Shown one piece after another: positions 42,364-63,707 of a stretch of 64,000 nt of DNA (its first letter is position 1; each line of letters opens with the position of its first letter). Position numbers and translations under genes: made by a program. This DNA is from Myxococcales bacterium. Its GTDB lineage: Bacteria > Myxococcota_A > Polyangia > Polyangiales > Polyangiaceae. The stretch lies in the NCBI GenBank assembly GCA_013297655.1, contig JAAFHV010000002.1:1-64000 (forward strand), given 5' to 3'. The notes below the pieces were generated by a model that was not told the origin of the DNA, did no database searches, and saw only the letters and a list, made by a program, of their open reading frames with translations.

Positions 42364-43857
42364 ATGGCCGATCGAGCAGTCCACTCCGGGAGGTCGTTTC
42401 GCCACCCCACGACGAGCTTCCGCCTCGGCGCGACAGGCACGCTCCAGCAGCGGCTCGCCACGTCGATTCGCGAGCGCATCCTCGAAGGCACCCTCGCGAG
42501 CGGCGCGCGGCTCCCCTCGACGCGCGCCCTCGCCGAGAGTCTCGGGCTCTCGCGCGCCACCGTGACGGCCGCGTTCGAGCAGCTCGTGGCGGAGGGTTAC
42601 ATCGAGGCGCGCCACGGCTCCGGCTCCTACGTGCGCCGGGAAGAGCTCGCGCGTCCGGTGCCCACCCCGGTCGAGAGCGCGGCGCCGCGGTTCGTCGCCA
42701 CCGCGTCTGTGGAACGCATGCTCGCCTCGCCGAGCGCATCGCTCCGTCGTGACGGGAAGCCGCGCGCGTTTCGAATGGCCGTGCCGGAGCTCTCGACCCT
42801 CCCGATCGCGACGTGGGCGCGGCTCTCCAGCGCGGTGTGGCGGCGCGCATCACCGAGCTTGCTCTCGTACCAAGATCGGAGCGGCCTTCCGGCGCTGCGG
42901 GAGGCGATCGCGCGGTACCTCACCGCGGAGCGAGGCGTGCGCTGCGACGCATCGCGCGTGCTCGTCACGAACGGGTCGCAGCAGGCCTTGCGTCTCGTCG
43001 CGCAGGTGATGGTCGAGCCGGGCGACGACGTGTGGATGGAAGAGCCGGGCTACTACGGCGCCCGCGCGGCGCTCGCCGACGCTGGCGCGCGCGTGCACCC
43101 GATCCGGGTCGACCGCGATGGGCTCGACGTGGCGCGCGCGCTTCGCATCGCGCCCTCCGCGAAGCTCGCCTACGTGACGCCCCGCCACCAGATGCCGCTC
43201 GGAGTGGCGCTCTCGGCGCCGCGTCGCCTCGCGCTCCTTTCGTGGGCGGCCAAGCACGACGGCCTCATCGTGGAGGACGACTACGACGGCGAGCTGCTCC
43301 TTCGCGGAAAGCCACTGCCTACGCTCCACGAGCTCGACGGCGGGAGGCGCGTCTTCTACGTCGGCTCGTTCAGCGTCGTGCTCTTCCCCGGTCTCCGCAT
43401 CGGGTACCTGGTCGTGCCGGCCGCGTTGGTCGACCTCTTCGCGTCGGCCCGCGCGCAGGCCGATCTCGGGTCGGGTGGGATCGACCAGGCCGTGCTCGCG
43501 CGGTTCATCAGCGAGGGTCACCTTCATCGCCACGTGCGACGCATGCGGCGAACCTACGCCGAGCGCGCCACGGTGCTCGAAGACGAGGCGCGTCGTCTCC
43601 TGCCCGGCGTGCGCCTCGACATCGGCGCGGTCGGCATCCACGCCGTCGCCTGGCTCCCTCGCGGGACTGACGAGGTCGCGCTCACGAGGGTGCTCGCCGC
43701 GAACGGCGTGGAAGTGCGGCCACTCGGCGTCTACCGCGCGCGTCGCTCGTCGCGATCCGGGCTCGTGCTCGGCTTCGGCGCGACCGCTCCACCGCTGCTT
43801 CGTGCCGGGGTCCGCGCCATCGCGGACGCGCTGTCTTCGCCGCGGCACTCCGGTTGA
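42364..43857 (+). CDS. MocR/PdxR-type GntR regulator lacking the PLP lysine
   Basis: A 497-residue protein. The N-terminal GntR winged helix (about 25-95) has LPSTRALAESLGLSRATVTAAFEQL and ARHGSGSYV. An aminotransferase fold-I domain follows with LLSYQDRSGLPALREAIARYL, TNGSQQALRL, DVWMEEPGYYGA and VEDDYDGEL. At the place where MocR proteins carry the PLP-binding lysine (SFSKxLFPxLRxGY) this one reads SFSVVLFPGLRIGY, with V338 instead of Lys. Schiff-base formation with PLP is therefore not expected. It is divergent from the DJ-1/PfpI gene and probably regulates that 46-bp interval. GAAAGG lies upstream of ATG 42364. Confidence 0.9.
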   Translation: MADRAVHSGRSFRHPTTSFRLGATGTLQQRLATSIRERILEGTLASGARLPSTRALAESLGLSRATVTAAFEQLVAEGYIEARHGSGSYVRREELARPVPTPVESAAPRFVATASVERMLASPSASLRRDGKPRAFRMAVPELSTLPIATWARLSSAVWRRASPSLLSYQDRSGLPALREAIARYLTAERGVRCDASRVLVTNGSQQALRLVAQVMVEPGDDVWMEEPGYYGARAALADAGARVHPIRVDRDGLDVARALRIAPSAKLAYVTPRHQMPLGVALSAPRRLALLSWAAKHDGLIVEDDYDGELLLRGKPLPTLHELDGGRRVFYVGSFSVVLFPGLRIGYLVVPAALVDLFASARAQADLGSGGIDQAVLARFISEGHLHRHVRRMRRTYAERATVLEDEARRLLPGVRLDIGAVGIHAVAWLPRGTDEVALTRVLAANGVEVRPLGVYRARRSSRSGLVLGFGATAPPLLRAGVRAIADALSSPRHSG

Positions 43858-43908
43858 GGCACGGAGAGAACCTCGCCGGCCACCTTCGCTACCGCACGAC
43901 GCACGCGG

Positions 43909-43939
43909 CTTGACATATGTAGACGCAGCGCCCACATAT
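43909..43939 (+). promoter_or_regulatory. Sigma-70-like promoter and candidate TetR operator of the efflux operon
   Basis: A consensus -35 TTGACA at 43909-43914 is followed 19 bp later by CATATT (43934-43939), four of six matches to -10. The 8-bp palindrome ACATATGT (43912-43919) overlaps the -35, and ACATAT recurs at 43933, 21 bp or two helical turns away. This spacing would suit the TetR-type repressor encoded inside the operon. Confidence 0.5.
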
Positions 43940-43984
43940 TCCCGCGGGCGCGGTCGTCGCGTCGAAAGGAAGCTCGGACCCACC

Positions 43985-46900
43985 GTGTGGCTCGTCCGTC
44001 TCGCGCTTCGTCGTCCCTACACGTTCGTAGTGATGGCGCTCATGCTGCTTTTGTCCGGCGTCTACGTTGTCCGGCAAACACCGACCGACATCCTGCCGGA
44101 GGTCGACCAGACCGTGATCGCGGTGGTGTGGACGTACGGAGGTTTGCCCGCGAAGCAGATGGAGCGGCAGATCACGCAGTTCTCGGAGTACTCGCTCTCG
44201 GGGAACGTCGCCGACGTGAAGGCGATCCAGTCCGATAGCTACGACGGCGTCTCGGTGATTCGCCTCTCGATGCAGCCCGGCGCCGACGTGCCCACCGCGA
44301 TGGCGCAGGTGACGGCCGTCTCGCAGACGATCGTGCGGCGCATGCCCCCGAACACGATCCCGCCGATCATCTTGAAGTACTCGGCGTCGAGCGTGCCCAT
44401 CTTGCAGCTCGCGTTCAGCAGCGACACGCTCACGGAGGCCGAGATCTTCGACCACGTGAACCAGCGCGTGCGCACCATGCTGAGCGTGGTGCGCGGCACC
44501 CGCTTCCCGCTCCCGTCCGGCGGAAAGGCGCGGCAAATCTCGGTCGATTTGGACCTCGGCGCTCTCCGCGCGCAGGGCCTCTCCCCGAGCGACGTGAGCC
44601 TCGCCGTCGGCGCGCAGAACCTCACCCTGCCGACCGGCACCACCAAGATCGACGACCGCGAGCTGCGGGTGTCGCTCAACTCGAGCCCCGAGGTCGTGGC
44701 TCAGCTCAACGACATTCCGATCCGCAAATCGGACGGCAAGGTTATCTTCCTCCGCGACGTCGCCTACGTGCACGACGGCTTCGCGGTGCAGACGAACCTC
44801 GCGCGGCGCGACGGCAAACGCTCCGTCGTGCTCTCGGTCATGAAGACCGGCTCGGCCTCGACGGTGGAGGTCGCGGAGCGGGTGAAGGCGATGATGCCCA
44901 CGATCCGCGCGTCGGCGCCGCCGGGGCTCGAGGTCGAGCTCCTGTCCGACCAGTCCACGTTCGTCACCCGCGCGATCGACGGGTTGCTGGTGGAGGGGCT
45001 CATCGCCGCGCTCCTCACCGCCGCGACGATCTTGCTCTTCCTCGGCAGCTTGCGGAGCACGATCGTGGTCGCGGTCTCGATCCCGCTCTCGGTCACCGCC
45101 GCGCTGCTTCTGATGCGCGCGTTCGGCGCCACCATCAACGTGAGCACCCTCGGGGGTCTCTCGCTCGCGGTCGGCATCCTCGTCGACGACGCGACGGTCG
45201 AGATCGAGAACATCCATCGGAACATTTCGCAGGGAAAAAACCTGACCCGCGCCATCTTGGACGGCGCCGAGCAGATCGCGGTCCCCGCCTTCGTCGCGTC
45301 GAGCAGCATCGCGATCGTGTTCGTGTCGGTGGTGTTCCTCGAGGGCCCCGCGAAATCGATCTTCCTCCCGATGGGGATGGCGGTCGGCTTCTCGGTCATG
45401 GCCTCGTACGTGCTCTCGCGAACGCTGGTCCCCACGATGGTGGCGTACCTCTTGAAGGCCGAGCTCGAGGCGCACGGAAAAAAAGGGCCGCTCGGGTTCT
45501 TCGGGCGCATCCACGCGCGGTTCGAGGCGGCCTTCGAGTCGTTCCGTGCATCGTACACGCGCCTCTTGGCGAAGGCGCTCGTGTCCCCGAAGACCACGTT
45601 CGCGATCTTCGTCGCGATGGTGGTGCTCGCGTGCGAGCTCGTCCCCTTCGTGGGTCGCGACTTCTTCCCGAAGGTCGACGGTGGTCAGGTGCGCCTCCAC
45701 GTGGTCGCGCCTCCCGGCACGCGGATCGAAGAGACGGAGCGCTGGTTCTCTCGGGTCGAGGCGAGGATCCGCGAGCTCGTCCCGGACGAAGACCGGGTCT
45801 CCATCTTGGACCAGCTCGGCACGCCGAGCGGATACAACCTGGCGATCACGGACACGAGCACCGTCTCGTCTGCCGACGGTGAGATCTTGCTCACCCTCCA
45901 GCGGAAGCGCGCGAAGAAGACCGACGAGTACGTGAAGATCTTGCGCGACGATTTGCCCGGGAAATTTCCCGAGCTCTCGTTTTATTTCCAGCCCGCCGAC
46001 GTGGTCACGCAGATCGTCAACTTCGGTCTCCCGTCGCCGGTCGACGTGCAGGTCTCGGGTCCCAAGCTCGACGACAGCTTCGCGATCGCGAAGAGCATCG
46101 AAGCCGATCTGCGCGTGCTTCCGGGCGCGGTCGACGTGCGGCTCCATCAAGTCACCTCCGCGCCTCGGCTCCACGTCGACGTCGATCGCATCCGCAGCGC
46201 GGACGTGGGCCTCACCGAGCGTGACATCGCGCAGAACCTGCTCCTCGTCGTGTCGTCGAGCTCGCAGGTGTCGCCCACGTTCTGGACCGATCCGGTCACC
46301 GGCAACTCGTACCCCGTCTCGATCGGCGTCCCGGACTACAAGGTCGCGTCCACCGACGACCTCGGCGCTCTCTCGTTCTCGTCGCCGCGTGGCATCCAGA
46401 CGCTCGGCGATCTCTCGAGGATCACCCGCAAAACCACGCCTGTCTTCGTCACCCACGCCAACGTGCAGCCCACGTTCGACATCCGCGCCGATGTCGAGAA
46501 CGCCGACCTCGGCCTCCTCGCGAAGAACGTCGACAAGGTGGTCGCGAAGCACTCCAAGAAGCTCCCTCCCGGCACCACCATCTCCGTGCGCGGGCAAGCC
46601 GAGAGCATGAACGACGGCTTCGCGAGCCTCGGTCTCGGCCTCGCCCTCGCCGCGATGCTGGTCTACGGGCTCATGGTGGTGAACTTCCAGTCGTGGAAGC
46701 ACCCGTTCATCATCTTGATGGCGCTCCCGGGCGCGGGGGTGGGCCTCGTGATCGCGCTTTTTGCGACGCGGACCACGTTCAGCATCCCGTCGCTCATGGG
46801 CGCGATCACGAGCGTCGGCGTCGCGACCGCGAACTCGATCTTGGTCGTCACGTTCGCCAAAGAGCAACGCGAGCACGGGCTCTCGTCGCGCGAGGCCGCC

Positions 46901-47203
46901 CTCGAAGCGGGTCGCGTGCGCCTTCGTCCCGTCGTGATGACCGCGCTCGCCATGATCGCCGGCATGCTCCCGATGTCGCTCGGTCACGGCGAAGGCGGGG
47001 AGCAAAACGCAGCCCTCGGTCGCGCGGTGCTCGGCGGTCTCGTCGGCGCCACCCTCGCGACGCTCCTCTTCGTTCCCGTCGTGTACTCCGTGCTCGCCAA
47101 AAACGACGCGCCGCGCGTGGTCGATCCCGAGCTCGAAGACTCTCCTCGATCCCCCGCGCGAGGCATCTCCCTCGCCGAGCCTTTGCCGGAGCCTGCCGAA
47201 TGA
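43985..47203 (+). CDS. RND efflux pump inner-membrane transporter
   Basis: A 1072-residue AcrB/MexF-family proton antiporter with 12 membrane helices in two repeats separated by large periplasmic loops. The first helix is RRPYTFVVMALMLLLSGVYV. TM4 contains the proton-relay pair in LVDDATVEIENIHRN. GTG 43985 gives a normal RND start; the open frame extends upstream into the previous gene. Its stop overlaps the adaptor gene as ATGA. Substrate (drug or hydrophobic compound rather than metal) is an inference. Confidence 0.92.
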   Translation: MWLVRLALRRPYTFVVMALMLLLSGVYVVRQTPTDILPEVDQTVIAVVWTYGGLPAKQMERQITQFSEYSLSGNVADVKAIQSDSYDGVSVIRLSMQPGADVPTAMAQVTAVSQTIVRRMPPNTIPPIILKYSASSVPILQLAFSSDTLTEAEIFDHVNQRVRTMLSVVRGTRFPLPSGGKARQISVDLDLGALRAQGLSPSDVSLAVGAQNLTLPTGTTKIDDRELRVSLNSSPEVVAQLNDIPIRKSDGKVIFLRDVAYVHDGFAVQTNLARRDGKRSVVLSVMKTGSASTVEVAERVKAMMPTIRASAPPGLEVELLSDQSTFVTRAIDGLLVEGLIAALLTAATILLFLGSLRSTIVVAVSIPLSVTAALLLMRAFGATINVSTLGGLSLAVGILVDDATVEIENIHRNISQGKNLTRAILDGAEQIAVPAFVASSSIAIVFVSVVFLEGPAKSIFLPMGMAVGFSVMASYVLSRTLVPTMVAYLLKAELEAHGKKGPLGFFGRIHARFEAAFESFRASYTRLLAKALVSPKTTFAIFVAMVVLACELVPFVGRDFFPKVDGGQVRLHVVAPPGTRIEETERWFSRVEARIRELVPDEDRVSILDQLGTPSGYNLAITDTSTVSSADGEILLTLQRKRAKKTDEYVKILRDDLPGKFPELSFYFQPADVVTQIVNFGLPSPVDVQVSGPKLDDSFAIAKSIEADLRVLPGAVDVRLHQVTSAPRLHVDVDRIRSADVGLTERDIAQNLLLVVSSSSQVSPTFWTDPVTGNSYPVSIGVPDYKVASTDDLGALSFSSPRGIQTLGDLSRITRKTTPVFVTHANVQPTFDIRADVENADLGLLAKNVDKVVAKHSKKLPPGTTISVRGQAESMNDGFASLGLGLALAAMLVYGLMVVNFQSWKHPFIILMALPGAGVGLVIALFATRTTFSIPSLMGAITSVGVATANSILVVTFAKEQREHGLSSREAALEAGRVRLRPVVMTALAMIAGMLPMSLGHGEGGEQNAALGRAVLGGLVGATLATLLFVPVVYSVLAKNDAPRVVDPELEDSPRSPARGISLAEPLPEPAE

Positions 47204-53985: not shown

Positions 53986-55602
53986 TCAGTCCCACGCGTC
54001 GGTGACACCGAAGAAGTACTCGCTGTACCGGCTGTCGACGTCGAGCGAGACACGCTTCACGTCCTTGACGCAGCTCGCATCTACCTTCGCCTTCGGATCT
54101 TTCAAGAAGGCTTCGAGCATCGCGAGGGAGCACTCGCTGTCGAACACGACACCGTGGTTTCCGCCGTCGATTCGTACGAACTGGAGGCTCGGATCTTCCA
54201 CGTACTTCAAGGCTTCTTGCGAGAGCGAGTACACGGTTTGAAAATCGAAGGTGCCTTGCATCACGAGCCACGGCACGTCGCGCTTCACCCAGCCGTTCAC
54301 CAAGGTGTCGCGCGGGTAGGGCTGCCACGCCTCGAAGTACGAGAGATCGAGCGAGTCTTCTCCGGGCCGAAGCTCGAGCATCGCGGCCTTCGCGGCGAGC
54401 ACGGCGCGGCTCGGCACCGGGCGCGAGATCATCTCCGACGCGACGACGTGGACGAGGAGCGCGGTCGACATGCCGTGCGCGCTGCTCGGGTTCGGCGTGG
54501 GGCCGAAGCGATGCACCGGCAGCGGGCTCCGTTGGTTCGCCTCCTCGAGCTTCTCGACGAGCGTATCGAGCACCTTCACGTCGGCGTCGGAGCAGCGGTT
54601 CAAACGGTAGAACGTAGGGAAGATGCCTTGCTGCCAGGAAGGCCCGAGCGCGAGCGCGATGTCGGCGGGGGCGAGCTGGGAGAGCTTGGTGCGCGCGCAG
54701 TGGCCGGTGGCGAGCTTCGCCAGCACCTCGCGGAAGAACGTACGCGGCTCTGCTCCGAGCTTGGCGGTGCACGAGGCCGTCTCTTTGCAGACGTCGAGCA
54801 TCGCGCCCACCGCCTCGTCCATCCCGAAGGTTTGTGGCGTATCGAACGAGCAGGTGGAAGATAGGCAGTTACCGTCGGTCACCACCGCGTCCACTTTGGA
54901 GTCGGGGAGCTGGAGGAACCGGTGCGCCCAATAGGAGCCGTACGATCCGCCGTAGAGGAACACCTTCTGCGCGGGCGTCGCCGTCGCCGCGATCAAGTCT
55001 CGTACGTCTTTGGCGGACTCGGTCGTCGAAAATCCGTCCAGCTTGTCGCCCAAGATTCCGCGCACTTCGTCGGAGCACTTCTTGGAAAAGTCGTTCGAGG
55101 TGGACGCCGTTCGGTACGCCTTCGGGCAATCGAGGTATCCGGACTCGCCTGTTCCTCGGTGGTCGACGAGGTACACGTCGATCCCCTGCGCGAAGCTGCT
55201 CGACACGATTTCTCCGTAAGGAGCCAAGCTGAAGCCCGCGCCACCGGGGCCGCCGTTCAGCATCCAGAGCTGGCCCGTCGCGGGCTGCTTCCGTGACTTG
55301 AGCCTATAAATGGCGACCGGAACGGTGCCGCTGCCGACGACCTCGCGCCGCGCGGGCAGGTCGACCGTCGCGCACTCGGCTTGAATCCCGCCGCGGTATC
55401 CCGGCACCTCGCACGTGCCCCACGCGATCGTGGGCTTCACCGCGGGCGGATCGATCGGGGGCACGCTCGGCGGGGTCGTCGGTGTCGCCGTCGGCGCGGG
55501 CGTCACGATCGGGTCGTCTACGATCGATCCATTGCACGCGATGGAGAGTGTCGCGACGCACGCCAAGAGAGCGGGGCCAATCGGCCCGAGCGAGAGCTTC
55601 AT
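53986..55602 (-). CDS. TAP-type alpha/beta hydrolase, exported
   Basis: A 538-residue protein. The signal ends SIAC (C23), then a Pro/Thr linker. The hydrolase fold has oxyanion loop NGGPGGAG (116-123), nucleophile S220 in GGSYGS, Asp in VMQGTFDFQTV and His in DGGNHGVVF. The layout matches tripeptidyl aminopeptidase-like S33 hydrolases, which have a cap between the core and the C-terminal Asp/His. ATG 55600-55602 was chosen at the signal peptide start. It is convergent with the P450, whose stop is 12 bp away. Confidence 0.85.
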   Translation of the reverse strand: MKLSLGPIGPALLACVATLSIACNGSIVDDPIVTPAPTATPTTPPSVPPIDPPAVKPTIAWGTCEVPGYRGGIQAECATVDLPARREVVGSGTVPVAIYRLKSRKQPATGQLWMLNGGPGGAGFSLAPYGEIVSSSFAQGIDVYLVDHRGTGESGYLDCPKAYRTASTSNDFSKKCSDEVRGILGDKLDGFSTTESAKDVRDLIAATATPAQKVFLYGGSYGSYWAHRFLQLPDSKVDAVVTDGNCLSSTCSFDTPQTFGMDEAVGAMLDVCKETASCTAKLGAEPRTFFREVLAKLATGHCARTKLSQLAPADIALALGPSWQQGIFPTFYRLNRCSDADVKVLDTLVEKLEEANQRSPLPVHRFGPTPNPSSAHGMSTALLVHVVASEMISRPVPSRAVLAAKAAMLELRPGEDSLDLSYFEAWQPYPRDTLVNGWVKRDVPWLVMQGTFDFQTVYSLSQEALKYVEDPSLQFVRIDGGNHGVVFDSECSLAMLEAFLKDPKAKVDASCVKDVKRVSLDVDSRYSEYFFGVTDAWD

Positions 55603-55820
55603 TGCGCCGTGTCGAGCAAATGACGCGCCAATCGAATTATTCGGAAAAAGCCCAGCCATCGAGACGGCCCGTTAGCCAGGTGACGGACGCCGTCGTCGTG
55701 CGAGTTGCGCAGCCGTGCGTGGTCGGGCATACGGGTTGCCCACGGTGTGCGAGAGGGTCTTCGGTCCAATCGATCACTGTGCTTCTCGAGATACCCATCT
55801 TCATTGAACTAAGGAGAACC

Positions 55821-57254
55821 ATGGTGAACAAAGCTCACCTTGCAGCAGGCATCCTGGCCTGTGTCCTCGTCGCGTGCTCCGGCACCGACGGCGCGTCCGG
55901 CAGCAAAGGCACCGCCGGCGACAAGGGCACACCTGGAACCGCCGGCACTGCAGGTACGACAGGAAAATCCGGGGAGGCGAGCATCAGCCTCGTCTCGCCG
56001 CGCGCGGCCGTGCTCGACGGCATCGCCGAGGTCACCATCTCGGTCGACGGCGCCGACCTCCCGAGCGCCGCGACCGTGTCGTTCGGCGCGGGCGTCAAGG
56101 TGGGGCAGAGCGTCGTCACGAAGCGCTCGATGATCGTCGAAATTCAGGTCGATCCTACGGCCGCGATAGGTCCCCGCGACGTGGTCGTCTCCGGCCCCGA
56201 TGGCTTCAAGCTCACCTACGCGGGCGGCTTCGCGGTCGGCGCTGGCCTCGGCGTAAAGGTCTCCGGCGGCAAGGGTGAGCAGGGTGGCCTCGTGCAGGTC
56301 GACCTCACCAACCACGACGCCGAGTACTTCGACAGCGAGAGCTTCTCCCTCGTGCCGAGCGCGGCCGATGGGCTCTTTCTCCGGATCAATGCACCCTACA
56401 CGGGCCCGAAAGACGCGCGCGCCATCCTGCTCGTCGACCCGACGGCGAAAGCGGGCAACCTCGGCATCATCGGGACGAACTACCCCGGCGAGACGAACGC
56501 GCCGATTTACATCGCCGATCCGAAGGCCGTCACCGTCGCCGCGCGCACCGCCGAGACGCTCGGAACGACCGAGGTCACGAAGGTGATCACGACGCCTTTC
56601 CAGAGCTATCTCTTCAAGTACACCACGGGCGTCAACAAGCTCAACGTGATCAGCGTCGTGCCCAATACGGCGGCGCTCGTTCCTTTCGCGGTCGGTCTCG
56701 GCCCCGCGGGCAAGCTCTCGGACGTGATCTCGTCTGCGGCGTTCGTGGCCTATCCCACCACCGTCGGCGGCTCGGGCACCCTCATCGTCGCGAACAGCAA
56801 GTTCGCCGAGGCGGGCGCCTCCGCGGCCGACTTCGGGTTCAAAGCGACCGCGCGCTCCTTCGACGCGGAAGCTCCTATCGTCGAGGACGACGGCGCGCAG
56901 CACGACGGCGCGGGCGGCACGTTCCAAGCTTGGGGCGCGCTCCCGGCGGCCAACGCGGCGGTGCCCGTGCTCCTCCTCAACGGCGAGCTGAAGACGGCAG
57001 ATACGGCCGACGTGTACCGCGTCACCGGCGCGGCGAACCAGCAGGTGGAGGTCTCCATCCTGGGCGACGCTCCCGTCGCGCTCGCGATCTCGTCGAACGT
57101 GAATTTTCCCAACAACGCGAACACCGTGCGCGCCACGTTGAACACCAAAGCCGGCACCCTCGTGCTGGCGAACGCCGCTGCGAATCGTTTCATTCGCGTG
57201 GCCCCGGCCGATCGTCGAGGCAAGTACACGCTCGCCATTCGCGTTCGCCCGTGA
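55821..57254 (+). CDS. Collagen-like lipoprotein 1
   Basis: A 477-residue protein from ATG 55821 with AAGGAG upstream. Lipobox LVAC places C19 as the lipidated residue. Residues 21-53 are 11 Gly-X-Y triplets (GTD GAS GSK GTA GDK GTP ...), enough for a short collagen-like stalk. An IPT/TIG-like Ig domain follows (about 55-145: SLVSPRAAVLDGIAEVTIS). A large beta-rich region carries SNVNFPNNANTVRATLNT and a C-terminal domain of about 90 residues ending GKYTLAIRVRP, similar to pre-peptidase C-terminal domains. It is paralogous to the next gene. Confidence 0.82.
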   Translation: MVNKAHLAAGILACVLVACSGTDGASGSKGTAGDKGTPGTAGTAGTTGKSGEASISLVSPRAAVLDGIAEVTISVDGADLPSAATVSFGAGVKVGQSVVTKRSMIVEIQVDPTAAIGPRDVVVSGPDGFKLTYAGGFAVGAGLGVKVSGGKGEQGGLVQVDLTNHDAEYFDSESFSLVPSAADGLFLRINAPYTGPKDARAILLVDPTAKAGNLGIIGTNYPGETNAPIYIADPKAVTVAARTAETLGTTEVTKVITTPFQSYLFKYTTGVNKLNVISVVPNTAALVPFAVGLGPAGKLSDVISSAAFVAYPTTVGGSGTLIVANSKFAEAGASAADFGFKATARSFDAEAPIVEDDGAQHDGAGGTFQAWGALPAANAAVPVLLLNGELKTADTADVYRVTGAANQQVEVSILGDAPVALAISSNVNFPNNANTVRATLNTKAGTLVLANAAANRFIRVAPADRRGKYTLAIRVRP

Positions 57255-57288
57255 ACCTTTCTTTTCCTAGTTTTTCGGAGATTTCCCG

Positions 57289-58776
57289 ATGAAAAAGACT
57301 CTCTCCATTCTCGGTCTCGTGGGTGCGACGCTCCTCGTCGTCGCGTGTGGCTCGGACGGCGCTCCCGGCACCGATGGCGCCAAGGGCGACAACGGCGCGA
57401 AGGGTGACAACGGCACGCCCGGCACCGTCGGCAAGGACGGCGTCGTGACGCCCTCGCTCGAGTTCGTGACGCCGAACCGCGGCGTGCTCGACCGCACGAT
57501 CGAAGTGACCATTAGCGCGAGCGGCACCAAGTTCGCGGGCAGCCCCAAGGTCGACCTCGGCGCCGGCATCACGGTGTCGGAAGTGAAGGCCCTCAGCGCC
57601 ACGTCGATCTCGGCGAAGCTGGTGATCGCGGCGAACGCTGCGATTGGCGTCCGGGACGTGACGATCGACGGGCAGAAGCTCGAGAAGGCTTTTGCGGTCA
57701 TTCCGGCGATTTCGTCGACCATCGTGGGCACCGCGCAGCAGGGCGGCGTCGCCAACGTCGCGATCCAGAACAACGATCTCGCGAACCCGTTCGACAAGGA
57801 GAACCTCGCCCTCGTCGCGCCGGATCTCATCAACCTCAACGTCGGCGCGGAGTCGAACATCTTCGCGGGCGGCGCGTTCATCGTCCCGCCGCTCGTTACG
57901 GGCTCGCCCGCGTTCTCGCTCGCGAACATGGACGCCGAAGGAAAGCCGCGCACCACGTTCCTCGGCAACCCGAACGACGTGAAGGTCACCGCCCGCGCCG
58001 CCACCGCGCTCACCGTGAACGCCGCGCCGCAGGCGATCACGCTCGGCGCACAGCTCGCGTCGTTTTACGGCAAAGGCACTATCCCCGCGAACACCGCCAT
58101 GATCGCCGACTACCGCATTCAGGTCGGCGCCACCGCCACCACGTCGCCGCTCGGCTTCTTGTTCAGCAAGGGTGGTACCGCGAAGGACATCCTCGGCGTG
58201 GCGCAACCCCCGCAGAGCTTCTTGGGCGCCGAACCGCCCCCCTACGACCTTCACCTCGTCGTTCCCTTCCCCACGCAGGCGGCGGCGGAAGACGAATACC
58301 TCGTGCTCGTCGACAGCTCTGGCACCGGCGGTCCCGCCACCTTCAGCGCTACCTTCGTGAAGGCCGAGTCCATCCCCGAAGGCGCTCTCGCTCACAACAC
58401 CGCGCCCCTCGCGCAAGACCTCGCGGTGCTCCAAGCGATCCCGGCCAACCTCACCACCGACATCGGCGGCAAGGTCGTGGCCGGAAATCTGCTCACCACG
58501 ACCGAGGTCGACATCTACAAGATCACGGTCGCGAACAACGATCGTCTCCAGATCGGTATCGGCGGCGACGGCGAGTACGACGTCATCGTGTCCACCGACG
58601 GCACGACCGATCCGGAAGGCGCCAACGCCCTCGGTTACGTGTACTCCGCAACCAAAGGCCAGCTCGGCAGCGACGTGGTGACCGCGACCGCGACCACGAT
58701 TTACATCGCCGTGACGCCGTACCAAGCGCGCAACGGCAAGTACACGCTCTCGGTCCGCAAGATCGCCGCGAACTGA
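57289..58776 (+). CDS. Collagen-like lipoprotein 2 (paralogue)
   Basis: A 495-residue protein with lipobox VVAC (C20). Residues 21-53 are again exactly 11 Gly-X-Y triplets (GSD GAP GTD GAK GDN GAK GDN ...). The same order follows: an IPT/TIG-like domain (EFVTPNRGVLDRTIEVTIS) and a C-terminal domain ending GKYTLSVRKIAAN. The body diverges strongly from the first copy, but TPNRGVLDRTIEVTISASG versus SPRAAVLDGIAEVTISVDG shows common origin. Separation from gene 1 is 34 bp, and a terminator follows, so the two form one unit. Surface display with trimerisation is inferred. Confidence 0.85.
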   Translation: MKKTLSILGLVGATLLVVACGSDGAPGTDGAKGDNGAKGDNGTPGTVGKDGVVTPSLEFVTPNRGVLDRTIEVTISASGTKFAGSPKVDLGAGITVSEVKALSATSISAKLVIAANAAIGVRDVTIDGQKLEKAFAVIPAISSTIVGTAQQGGVANVAIQNNDLANPFDKENLALVAPDLINLNVGAESNIFAGGAFIVPPLVTGSPAFSLANMDAEGKPRTTFLGNPNDVKVTARAATALTVNAAPQAITLGAQLASFYGKGTIPANTAMIADYRIQVGATATTSPLGFLFSKGGTAKDILGVAQPPQSFLGAEPPPYDLHLVVPFPTQAAAEDEYLVLVDSSGTGGPATFSATFVKAESIPEGALAHNTAPLAQDLAVLQAIPANLTTDIGGKVVAGNLLTTTEVDIYKITVANNDRLQIGIGGDGEYDVIVSTDGTTDPEGANALGYVYSATKGQLGSDVVTATATTIYIAVTPYQARNGKYTLSVRKIAAN

Positions 58777-60378: not shown

Positions 60379-61302
60379 TCACGGCGCGTTTGGGTGCACG
60401 GCCTTCGGGTAGGCCTGACGAAGCGCGGTCGCCAACGTTTGGAGCGAGGGCTCGAGGGCCGAGCCCTTTCGCCAGATCAACGCGACTGTGCGGTGCGCGG
60501 CCGGTCCGGCGAGAGGGCGCACGTGGAGCCGCGCGCGTCGCGTCTCCGTGTCCACGGCGATGGCGGGGATGAGCGTGATGCAGCCGCCGCCCGCGACCAT
60601 TTGCACGAGCGTGGTCAAGCTCGTCGCGCGAAAGTCGCTCTCGTTCATTCGCGCGGCGCTGCACGCTTCGAGAGCTTGGGTGCGGAAGCAATGGCCCTCG
60701 TCGAGGAGCAGTAGCTCTTCGCCTCGAAGCTCGGCCTCGGTCACGTGCGTGCTCTTCTTGGCGAGCGCGTGATCGGGGGGCGTGAGGACGACGAAGGGGT
60801 CCTTCGCGAGGACCTGCTGCGCGACCTCGCCGATGTCGGCTTCGAGTGCCAGGATGGCCCCCTCGAGCTCGCCGTCGTCGAGGCGCTTCACCAGCACGTC
60901 CGTCTTCTCCTCGGTCCACCGGATGCGCAGCTTCGGGAACCGCTTGCGCAAAGGCGCCGTGATGCTCGGGAGCAAGTACGGCGCGAGCGTCGGAATGACG
61001 CCCAGCCGCATCGTTCCGGCGAACGGATCCGAAGTCCGCGTGGCCGCGCGAACGAGCTCGTCGGCTTCGACGAGAGCCCGCTTGGCGCGCGCCGCGAGGT
61101 CACGGCCTGGCACCGTGATGAGGACCTTCTTTCGGGTGCGCTCGAAGAGCGTTACGCCGAGCGCTTCCTCGACCTGCGCGAGCTGCGCGCTGAGCGAAGG
61201 CTGCGACACCCCGCAACGCTCGGCCGCGCGCCGGAACGAGAGCTCTTCGGCGATAGCCACGATGTACTGGAGCTGACGGAGGGTGAAGGGGTGGGGGGCC
61301 AT
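60379..61302 (-). CDS. oxyR: OxyR-type hydrogen peroxide sensor
   Basis: A 307-residue LysR-type regulator. The N-terminal HTH (LSFRRAAERCGVSQPSLSAQLAQVEEALG, about 21-49) has the classic LysR form. The redox pair is C205 and C214 in GHCFRTQALEAC, nine residues apart as Cys199 and Cys208 are in E. coli OxyR. It senses peroxide by disulfide formation and activates the divergent katG. The start ATG at 61300-61302 leaves a 95-bp interval to katG. Confidence 0.92.
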   Translation of the reverse strand: MAPHPFTLRQLQYIVAIAEELSFRRAAERCGVSQPSLSAQLAQVEEALGVTLFERTRKKVLITVPGRDLAARAKRALVEADELVRAATRTSDPFAGTMRLGVIPTLAPYLLPSITAPLRKRFPKLRIRWTEEKTDVLVKRLDDGELEGAILALEADIGEVAQQVLAKDPFVVLTPPDHALAKKSTHVTEAELRGEELLLLDEGHCFRTQALEACSAARMNESDFRATSLTTLVQMVAGGGCITLIPAIAVDTETRRARLHVRPLAGPAAHRTVALIWRKGSALEPSLQTLATALRQAYPKAVHPNAP

Positions 61303-61308
61303 CGTTGG

Positions 61309-63707
<2,399 letters not shown>

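Follow-up and report, generated by a model that had tools for sequence, protein, structure and literature searches.

Two adjacent genes in the window, a 64-kb stretch of DNA (contig C112) belonging to a genome of 9.9 Mb (G000), encode homologous lipoproteins, P1 and P2, in which the lipobox cysteine is followed by a short collagen-like Gly-X-Y segment, two IPT/TIG-like domains and two PPC domains. They define a myxobacterial lipoprotein family with this order of elements (lipobox, collagen-like tether, two TIG-like and two PPC domains), which has not previously been described as such; literature searches found no published description of the lipobox/stalk/TIG/PPC architecture in myxobacteria. 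The best explanation, in which we place about even confidence, is that P1 and P2 form an ancient duplicated pair of outer-membrane lipoproteins with non-catalytic binding heads carried on a modular collagen-type tether. In this model the N-terminal cysteine would be lipidated and the protein exported to the outer membrane, where the Gly-X-Y segment would tether the chain and pack with two others into a collagen-type triple-helical stalk, about 9-10 nm long for 11 triplets. The ligand bound by the head would belong to the cell envelope, to the extracellular matrix or to a neighbouring cell. Different lineages would have lengthened or shortened the stalk, or moved it between heads, and divergence of the heads after the duplication would have produced two copies with different specificities.

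The gene pair and its domains

P1 and P2 are adjacent and co-directional, separated by a gap of 34 bp, and are probably co-transcribed (Table 1). BLASTP aligned the two proteins at 38% over residues 13-191 (E=1e-22) and a second comparison at 31% across nearly their full length; they are homologous, judging from these alignments. Both present the short n-region, hydrophobic h-region and lipobox ([LVI]-x-[AGS]-C) that characterise signal peptidase II substrates. The lipobox cysteine that the sequence-only reading had pointed out in both proteins was found at C19 (LVAC) in P1 and at C20 (VVAC) in P2, and it is conserved in nearly all family members. Lipidation and an outer-membrane or surface location are predicted rather than observed features of the pair.

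Table 1. Features of the P1-P2 locus, with positions in the window.
Feature	Position	Strand	Remarks
Shine-Dalgarno-like AGGAG preceding the P1 start	55812-55816	+	sequence
P1, lipoprotein encoded by the first gene	55821-57254	+	477 aa; lipobox, 11 GXY, TIG-like x2, PPC x2
P1 type II signal peptide, lipobox LVA-C at end (Cys19)	55821-55877	+	sequence
P1 collagen-like stalk, 11 GXY triplets, residues 21-53	55881-55979	+	
P1 IPT/TIG-like domain 1, ~residues 53-139	55977-56237	+	structural matches to 1jmx (QHNDH alpha domain III) and plexin IPT
P1 TIG-like domain 2, ~residues 140-241	56238-56543	+	plexin IPT3-IPT4 alignment, residues 52-242
P1 PPC-like domain 1, ~residues 242-347	56544-56861	+	5iku, 5sv5 matches
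P1 PPC-like domain 2, ~residues 348-476, end ..GKYTLAI	56862-57248	+	1nqd/4hpk, Z 13.5-13.6
P2, lipoprotein encoded by the second gene	57289-58776	+	495 aa
P2 type II signal peptide, lipobox VVA-C at end (Cys20)	57289-57348	+	sequence
P2 collagen-like stalk, 11 GXY triplets, residues 21-53, two KGD motifs	57349-57447	+	
P2 IPT/TIG-like domain 1, ~residues 54-139	57448-57705	+	PF09099, 28 bits (cut-off 22); 1jmx_A, Z 13.6
P2 TIG-like domain 2, ~residues 140-235	57706-57993	+	plexin A1 IPT3-IPT4 alignment, residues 54-236
P2 PPC-like domain 1, ~residues 236-355	57994-58353	+	5sv5 Z 12.3, 1nqj Z 11.8
P2 PPC-like domain 2, ~residues 356-492, end ..GKYTLSV	58354-58764	+	1nqd/4hpk/5iku, Z 14.1
Terminator-like stem-loop, then TTTTGTATTT, downstream of P1-P2	58817-58834	+	consensus match only

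Pfam recognises the heads in part. PF09099 (Ig-like) is found in P2, with P1 giving no Pfam match in the same place; PF01833 appears in homologues only, just below its cut-off (20.3 versus 20.9 bits); and PF04151 (PPC) scores 12.6 bits in P2 against a cut-off of 25.9, with a homologue (L055) above it at 44.4 bits. A profile of the whole family searched against the PDB retrieved the tandem s3a-s3b domains of clostridial collagenase ColG (E 3e-7) and 1jmx (E 1e-4). AlphaFold models, for which the window proteins were aligned with ten relatives from tandem pairs, show all-beta heads predicted with confidence (mean pLDDT values of 80.8 and 78.3). In these models the first TIG-like domain superposes on domain III of 1jmx (Z 13.6 for P2, rmsd 1.5 over 81 residues; Z 12.2 for P1), and the two TIG-like domains together align with plexin A1 IPT3-IPT4 (Z 9.9 / 9.7) at an rmsd of 9, a value that probably reflects the angles between domains. 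The first PPC domain matches the 5sv5 PPC domain (Z 12.3 in P2, 10.3 in P1) and the second matches ColG s3b (Z 14.1 in P2, 13.6 in P1), with an rmsd of 2.2-2.3 over 109 residues. The head is therefore modelled as two IPT/TIG-like and two PPC domains, laid out identically in P1 and P2.

These folds agree with the IPT/TIG-like domain proposed earlier, and the similar C-terminal domain ending in GKYTL that had been noticed in both proteins proves to be a PPC domain, of which this motif is the last strand. The middle regions, which had been described as strongly different, have indeed diverged; they nevertheless hold the same domains, and the second TIG-like and first PPC domains can be aligned across the family.

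The PF09099/TIGR03908 and PPC matches could also be taken to mean that P1 and P2 assist an enzyme as accessory subunits, for instance an amine dehydrogenase or a peptidase. Such a role seems extremely improbable, given that the match is confined to Ig-like domain III, that TIGR03908 scores 26 bits where its cut-off is 274, that neither protein contains a haem motif or peptidase domain, and that no quinohemoprotein partner occurs among the neighbours examined.

The genes surrounding the pair in the window (an alpha/beta hydrolase, a LysR regulator, KatG) are ordinary ones, and no functional clue was found in them or in the rpsB/tsf and gatC/gatA neighbours of the Labilithrix-like genomes. The hydrolase is a TAP-like lipoprotein (53986-55602, minus strand) lying beside a cytochrome P450 (PF00067, 52558-53973). 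The LysR-type regulator (60379-61302, minus strand) is divergent from the catalase-peroxidase (PF00141, 61344-63707, plus strand), region 60379-63707 being an ordinary oxyR-katG-like arrangement, and an AcrB-type RND efflux pump (PF00873, E 2.8e-198) is found at 43475-47203.

The Gly-X-Y stalk and its range in the family

The exact number of 11 triplets at residues 21-53 claimed for both proteins was confirmed, and the two runs are uninterrupted. Since Gly makes up about 9% of the residues elsewhere, 11 perfect triplets cannot be put down to chance. The collagen model PF01391 scored 22.6 and 24.3 bits on the two stalks in hmmscan (cut-off 27.2) and 27.2-29.6 bits in the genome search, that is, around the same 27.2-bit cut-off, the proximity to the threshold being due to the shortness of the runs. 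In six orthologue sets, none of the 40 stalk Gly columns was replaced, with 16 changed synonymously, as compared with 27/80 X/Y columns (Fisher 3.8e-6) and 78/308 head Gly columns (Fisher 2.8e-5). From these substitution patterns, the Gly-X-Y periodicity itself is under strong purifying selection. Moreover, over the 377 triplets of the family, Gly occupies 13/754 X and Y positions versus 9.4% of residues elsewhere, and Pro accounts for 21% of X/Y positions. Preserved Gly together with nearly Gly-free X and Y positions is the signature expected of a triple-helix constraint, and is hard to explain for a linker indifferent to sequence. The AlphaFold monomer models are uninformative on the triple helix, stalk and signal peptide both having pLDDT values <50.

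The window stalks are Pro-poor, with 1 and 2 Pro per 22 X/Y positions. Being also short, they could probably form a triple helix only with the help of a trimerising head or of anchoring in the membrane; no trimerisation domain was identified. Should a triple helix indeed form, few natural bacterial collagens would be shorter than these stalks, which selection on Gly would maintain.

Searching with a profile recovered full-length members from about 35 of the 183 genomes of the order, all within the window's own taxonomic family. More distant ones were found in a second family of the class and in other parts of the phylum. The five named records carrying the family are Labilithrix sp. and metagenome-assembled genomes of Polyangiaceae and Myxococcales. 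Among 53 members tabulated for lipobox and stalk, 50 have both the lipobox and the Gly-X-Y segment, whose length goes from 4 to 15 triplets. The other three (L127, L129, L132) have only 1-2 triplets and, in their place, an acidic or Pro/Ser-rich linker, so that a triple helix is not essential across the whole family. The idea that the stalk is under length constraint was thus contradicted by the homologues, and a variable triplet number is what the sequence-only reading had itself named as refuting it. The 11 = 11 match is a feature of P1-P2 and not of the family.

This variability is one of the grounds for a different reading of the segment, namely as a flexible, exposed lipoprotein linker that serves LolCDE sorting and the spacing of a monomeric head from the membrane, with no triple helix involved. 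For E. coli LolCDE, a linker must comprise about ten or more unstructured residues, whose sequence is immaterial (PMC11671585), and even the shortest stalks of 4 triplets supply at least 12 residues; the three members with non-Gly-X-Y linkers, the scarcity of Pro in the window stalks and the presence of unrelated heads behind the same segment all fit a linker as well. The retention of Gly at every third position and its near exclusion from X and Y, while X and Y drift, speak against it, and we regard the linker reading as a genuine but rather unlikely alternative. A dual role, as triple helix and as LolCDE linker, is possible.

The unrelated heads just mentioned include a multihaem c-type cytochrome of the window's own genome, in which a lipobox and 11 triplets precede the haem-binding part (G000:C11:27450-28754; L005:1426-2730, L133), and further heads other than TIG/PPC stand behind the stalk in relatives. 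Sequences matching the collagen model PF01391 were present in 55 of the 60 genomes sampled from the family. In this group a short collagen-like tether behind a lipobox is a display module that has been used with more than one kind of head, cytochromes included. Three other collagen matches of the same genome (on C254, C74 and C193) were set aside as low-complexity or devoid of a lipobox.

An old duplication with matched stalks

In a maximum-likelihood tree, P1 falls among the first genes of the tandem pairs of five Labilithrix-like genomes, and P2 among their second genes. The first-gene and second-gene clades are separate, with support of 99/96 and 96/92, which dates the duplication to before the window genome and the Labilithrix-like lineages separated. 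The earlier proposal of a duplicated module with an envelope-anchored, collagen-like stalk and diverged heads is supported. The two genes have remained adjacent in 6/6 genomes with the old duplication. The Labilithrix-like genomes carry the pair in the interval from rpsB-tsf to gatC-gatA, a place occupied by a single copy in a more distant genome (G094); no other neighbours are common to the window and the Labilithrix-like genomes in the stretch compared. An independent tandem duplication was found in G064 (L063:266-4161), encoding mature proteins of ~620 residues.

Triplet counts within the old pairs are 11/11, 7/7, 7/7, 7/7, 6/7 and 4/5, and 15/15 in the G064 pair. The difference between partners averages 0.25, where randomly drawn family members would be expected to differ by 3.1 (P=0.0016 on the assumption of independent lineages). 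Gene conversion, considered as a source of equal stalks, is not obvious, the P1 and P2 stalks being identical at 6/22 X/Y positions and 32/66 nucleotides. Stalk lengths thus agree within tandem pairs, a weaker form of the proposed length constraint that hints at paired assembly, a result to be taken as suggestive only in view of the few independent lineages.

The matching raises the possibility that P1 and P2 co-assemble, as mixed trimers or as paired partners, and have for this reason kept equal stalk lengths in each genome. The agreement of the counts against a family range of 4-15, the differing stalk residues and the conserved adjacency would all be accounted for. The old duplication, however, offers three independent lineages, in which the observed pairing is the best of 6 permutations, and adding the one other pair makes it the best of 24. 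Common descent accounts for some of the agreement, selection could favour an equal reach even if no mixed trimers form, and the 6/7 and 4/5 counts are inexact. Co-assembly is for these reasons unlikely. Its most specific form, in which P1 and P2 would build a length-matched heterotrimeric collagen whose stalk length co-evolves within genomes and drifts between them, is more doubtful still; if true, it would constitute a natural bacterial hetero-collagen system. The length-matched old pair provides a natural test of whether hetero-collagens are made by bacteria.

Ligands and comparison with known systems

Returning to the proposal of non-catalytic binding heads, the nature of the ligand can be approached through the PPC pair, whose nearest solved relatives are ColG s3a-s3b (E 3e-7; Z 14.1). 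In fold and tandem arrangement this clostridial pair, of the PPC superfamily, corresponds to the C-terminal half of P1 and P2, which differ from ColG in having no collagenase module. The similarity, the abundance of collagen-like sequences in the family's genomes and the finding that a divergent Grimontia PPC domain needs no Ca2+ to bind triple-helical collagen (PMC6168687) would suit true collagen-binding heads that grip the stalks of neighbouring molecules or cells, resulting in homotypic adhesion. Yet mutation of Tyr970, Tyr994 or Tyr996 of ColG greatly lowers collagen binding (PMC4356367), and the positions of Tyr994 and Tyr996 are unconserved, being aromatic in 2/31 members each. Tyr is found at 996 in P2 and not in P1, position 970 falls inside an unaligned insert, and members of the tandem-pair clade lack the ExEPND-like calcium motif. 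We consider collagen binding very unlikely, and a ligand of the matrix or of the cell surface the likelier one.

Such a ligand would be in keeping with FibA of Myxococcus xanthus, whose C-terminal fragment (the spore cuticula Protein C) consists of tandem PPC domains and is an extracellular-matrix/spore-coat protein (PMC3236237). Like P1 and P2, FibA is a myxobacterial extracellular or surface protein with two consecutive PPC domains; unlike them, it is an M4 protease and lacks a collagen-like stalk and TIG domains. The adhesion or prey contact suggested earlier is unproven as a role for P1 and P2, and no pointer to predation specifically was found in their analysis, gene neighbours included.

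With regard to the stalk, the closest parallels are the streptococcal Scl1/Scl2 and the Burkholderia Bucl proteins, where a lineage-variable Gly-X-Y stalk likewise presents a non-collagenous head from the envelope (PMC8968730). P1 and P2 are distinguished from these by their N-terminal lipid anchor, a very short stalk (4-15 triplets in the family) and a C-terminal TIG and PPC head, and the NCBIfam Scl models match them in the stalk only, far under the cut-off. Bacteroides glycan-binding lipoproteins of the SGBP-B type, retrieved as weak Foldseek matches, share the lipid-anchored Ig-like chain; they differ in having no collagen-like stalk, and the examined neighbours of P1 and P2 include no SusCD or polysaccharide locus. 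In the Shewanella decahaem cytochrome MtrF, as in P1 and P2, the lipobox cysteine is directly followed by a short Gly-X-Y run; its multihaem head sets it apart from them and brings it closer to the stalked cytochrome of the window genome. Within the family itself, the homologue with the highest PPC score mentioned above (L055:9328-11496, from G070) is a member of ~700 residues with extra C-terminal PPC repeats.
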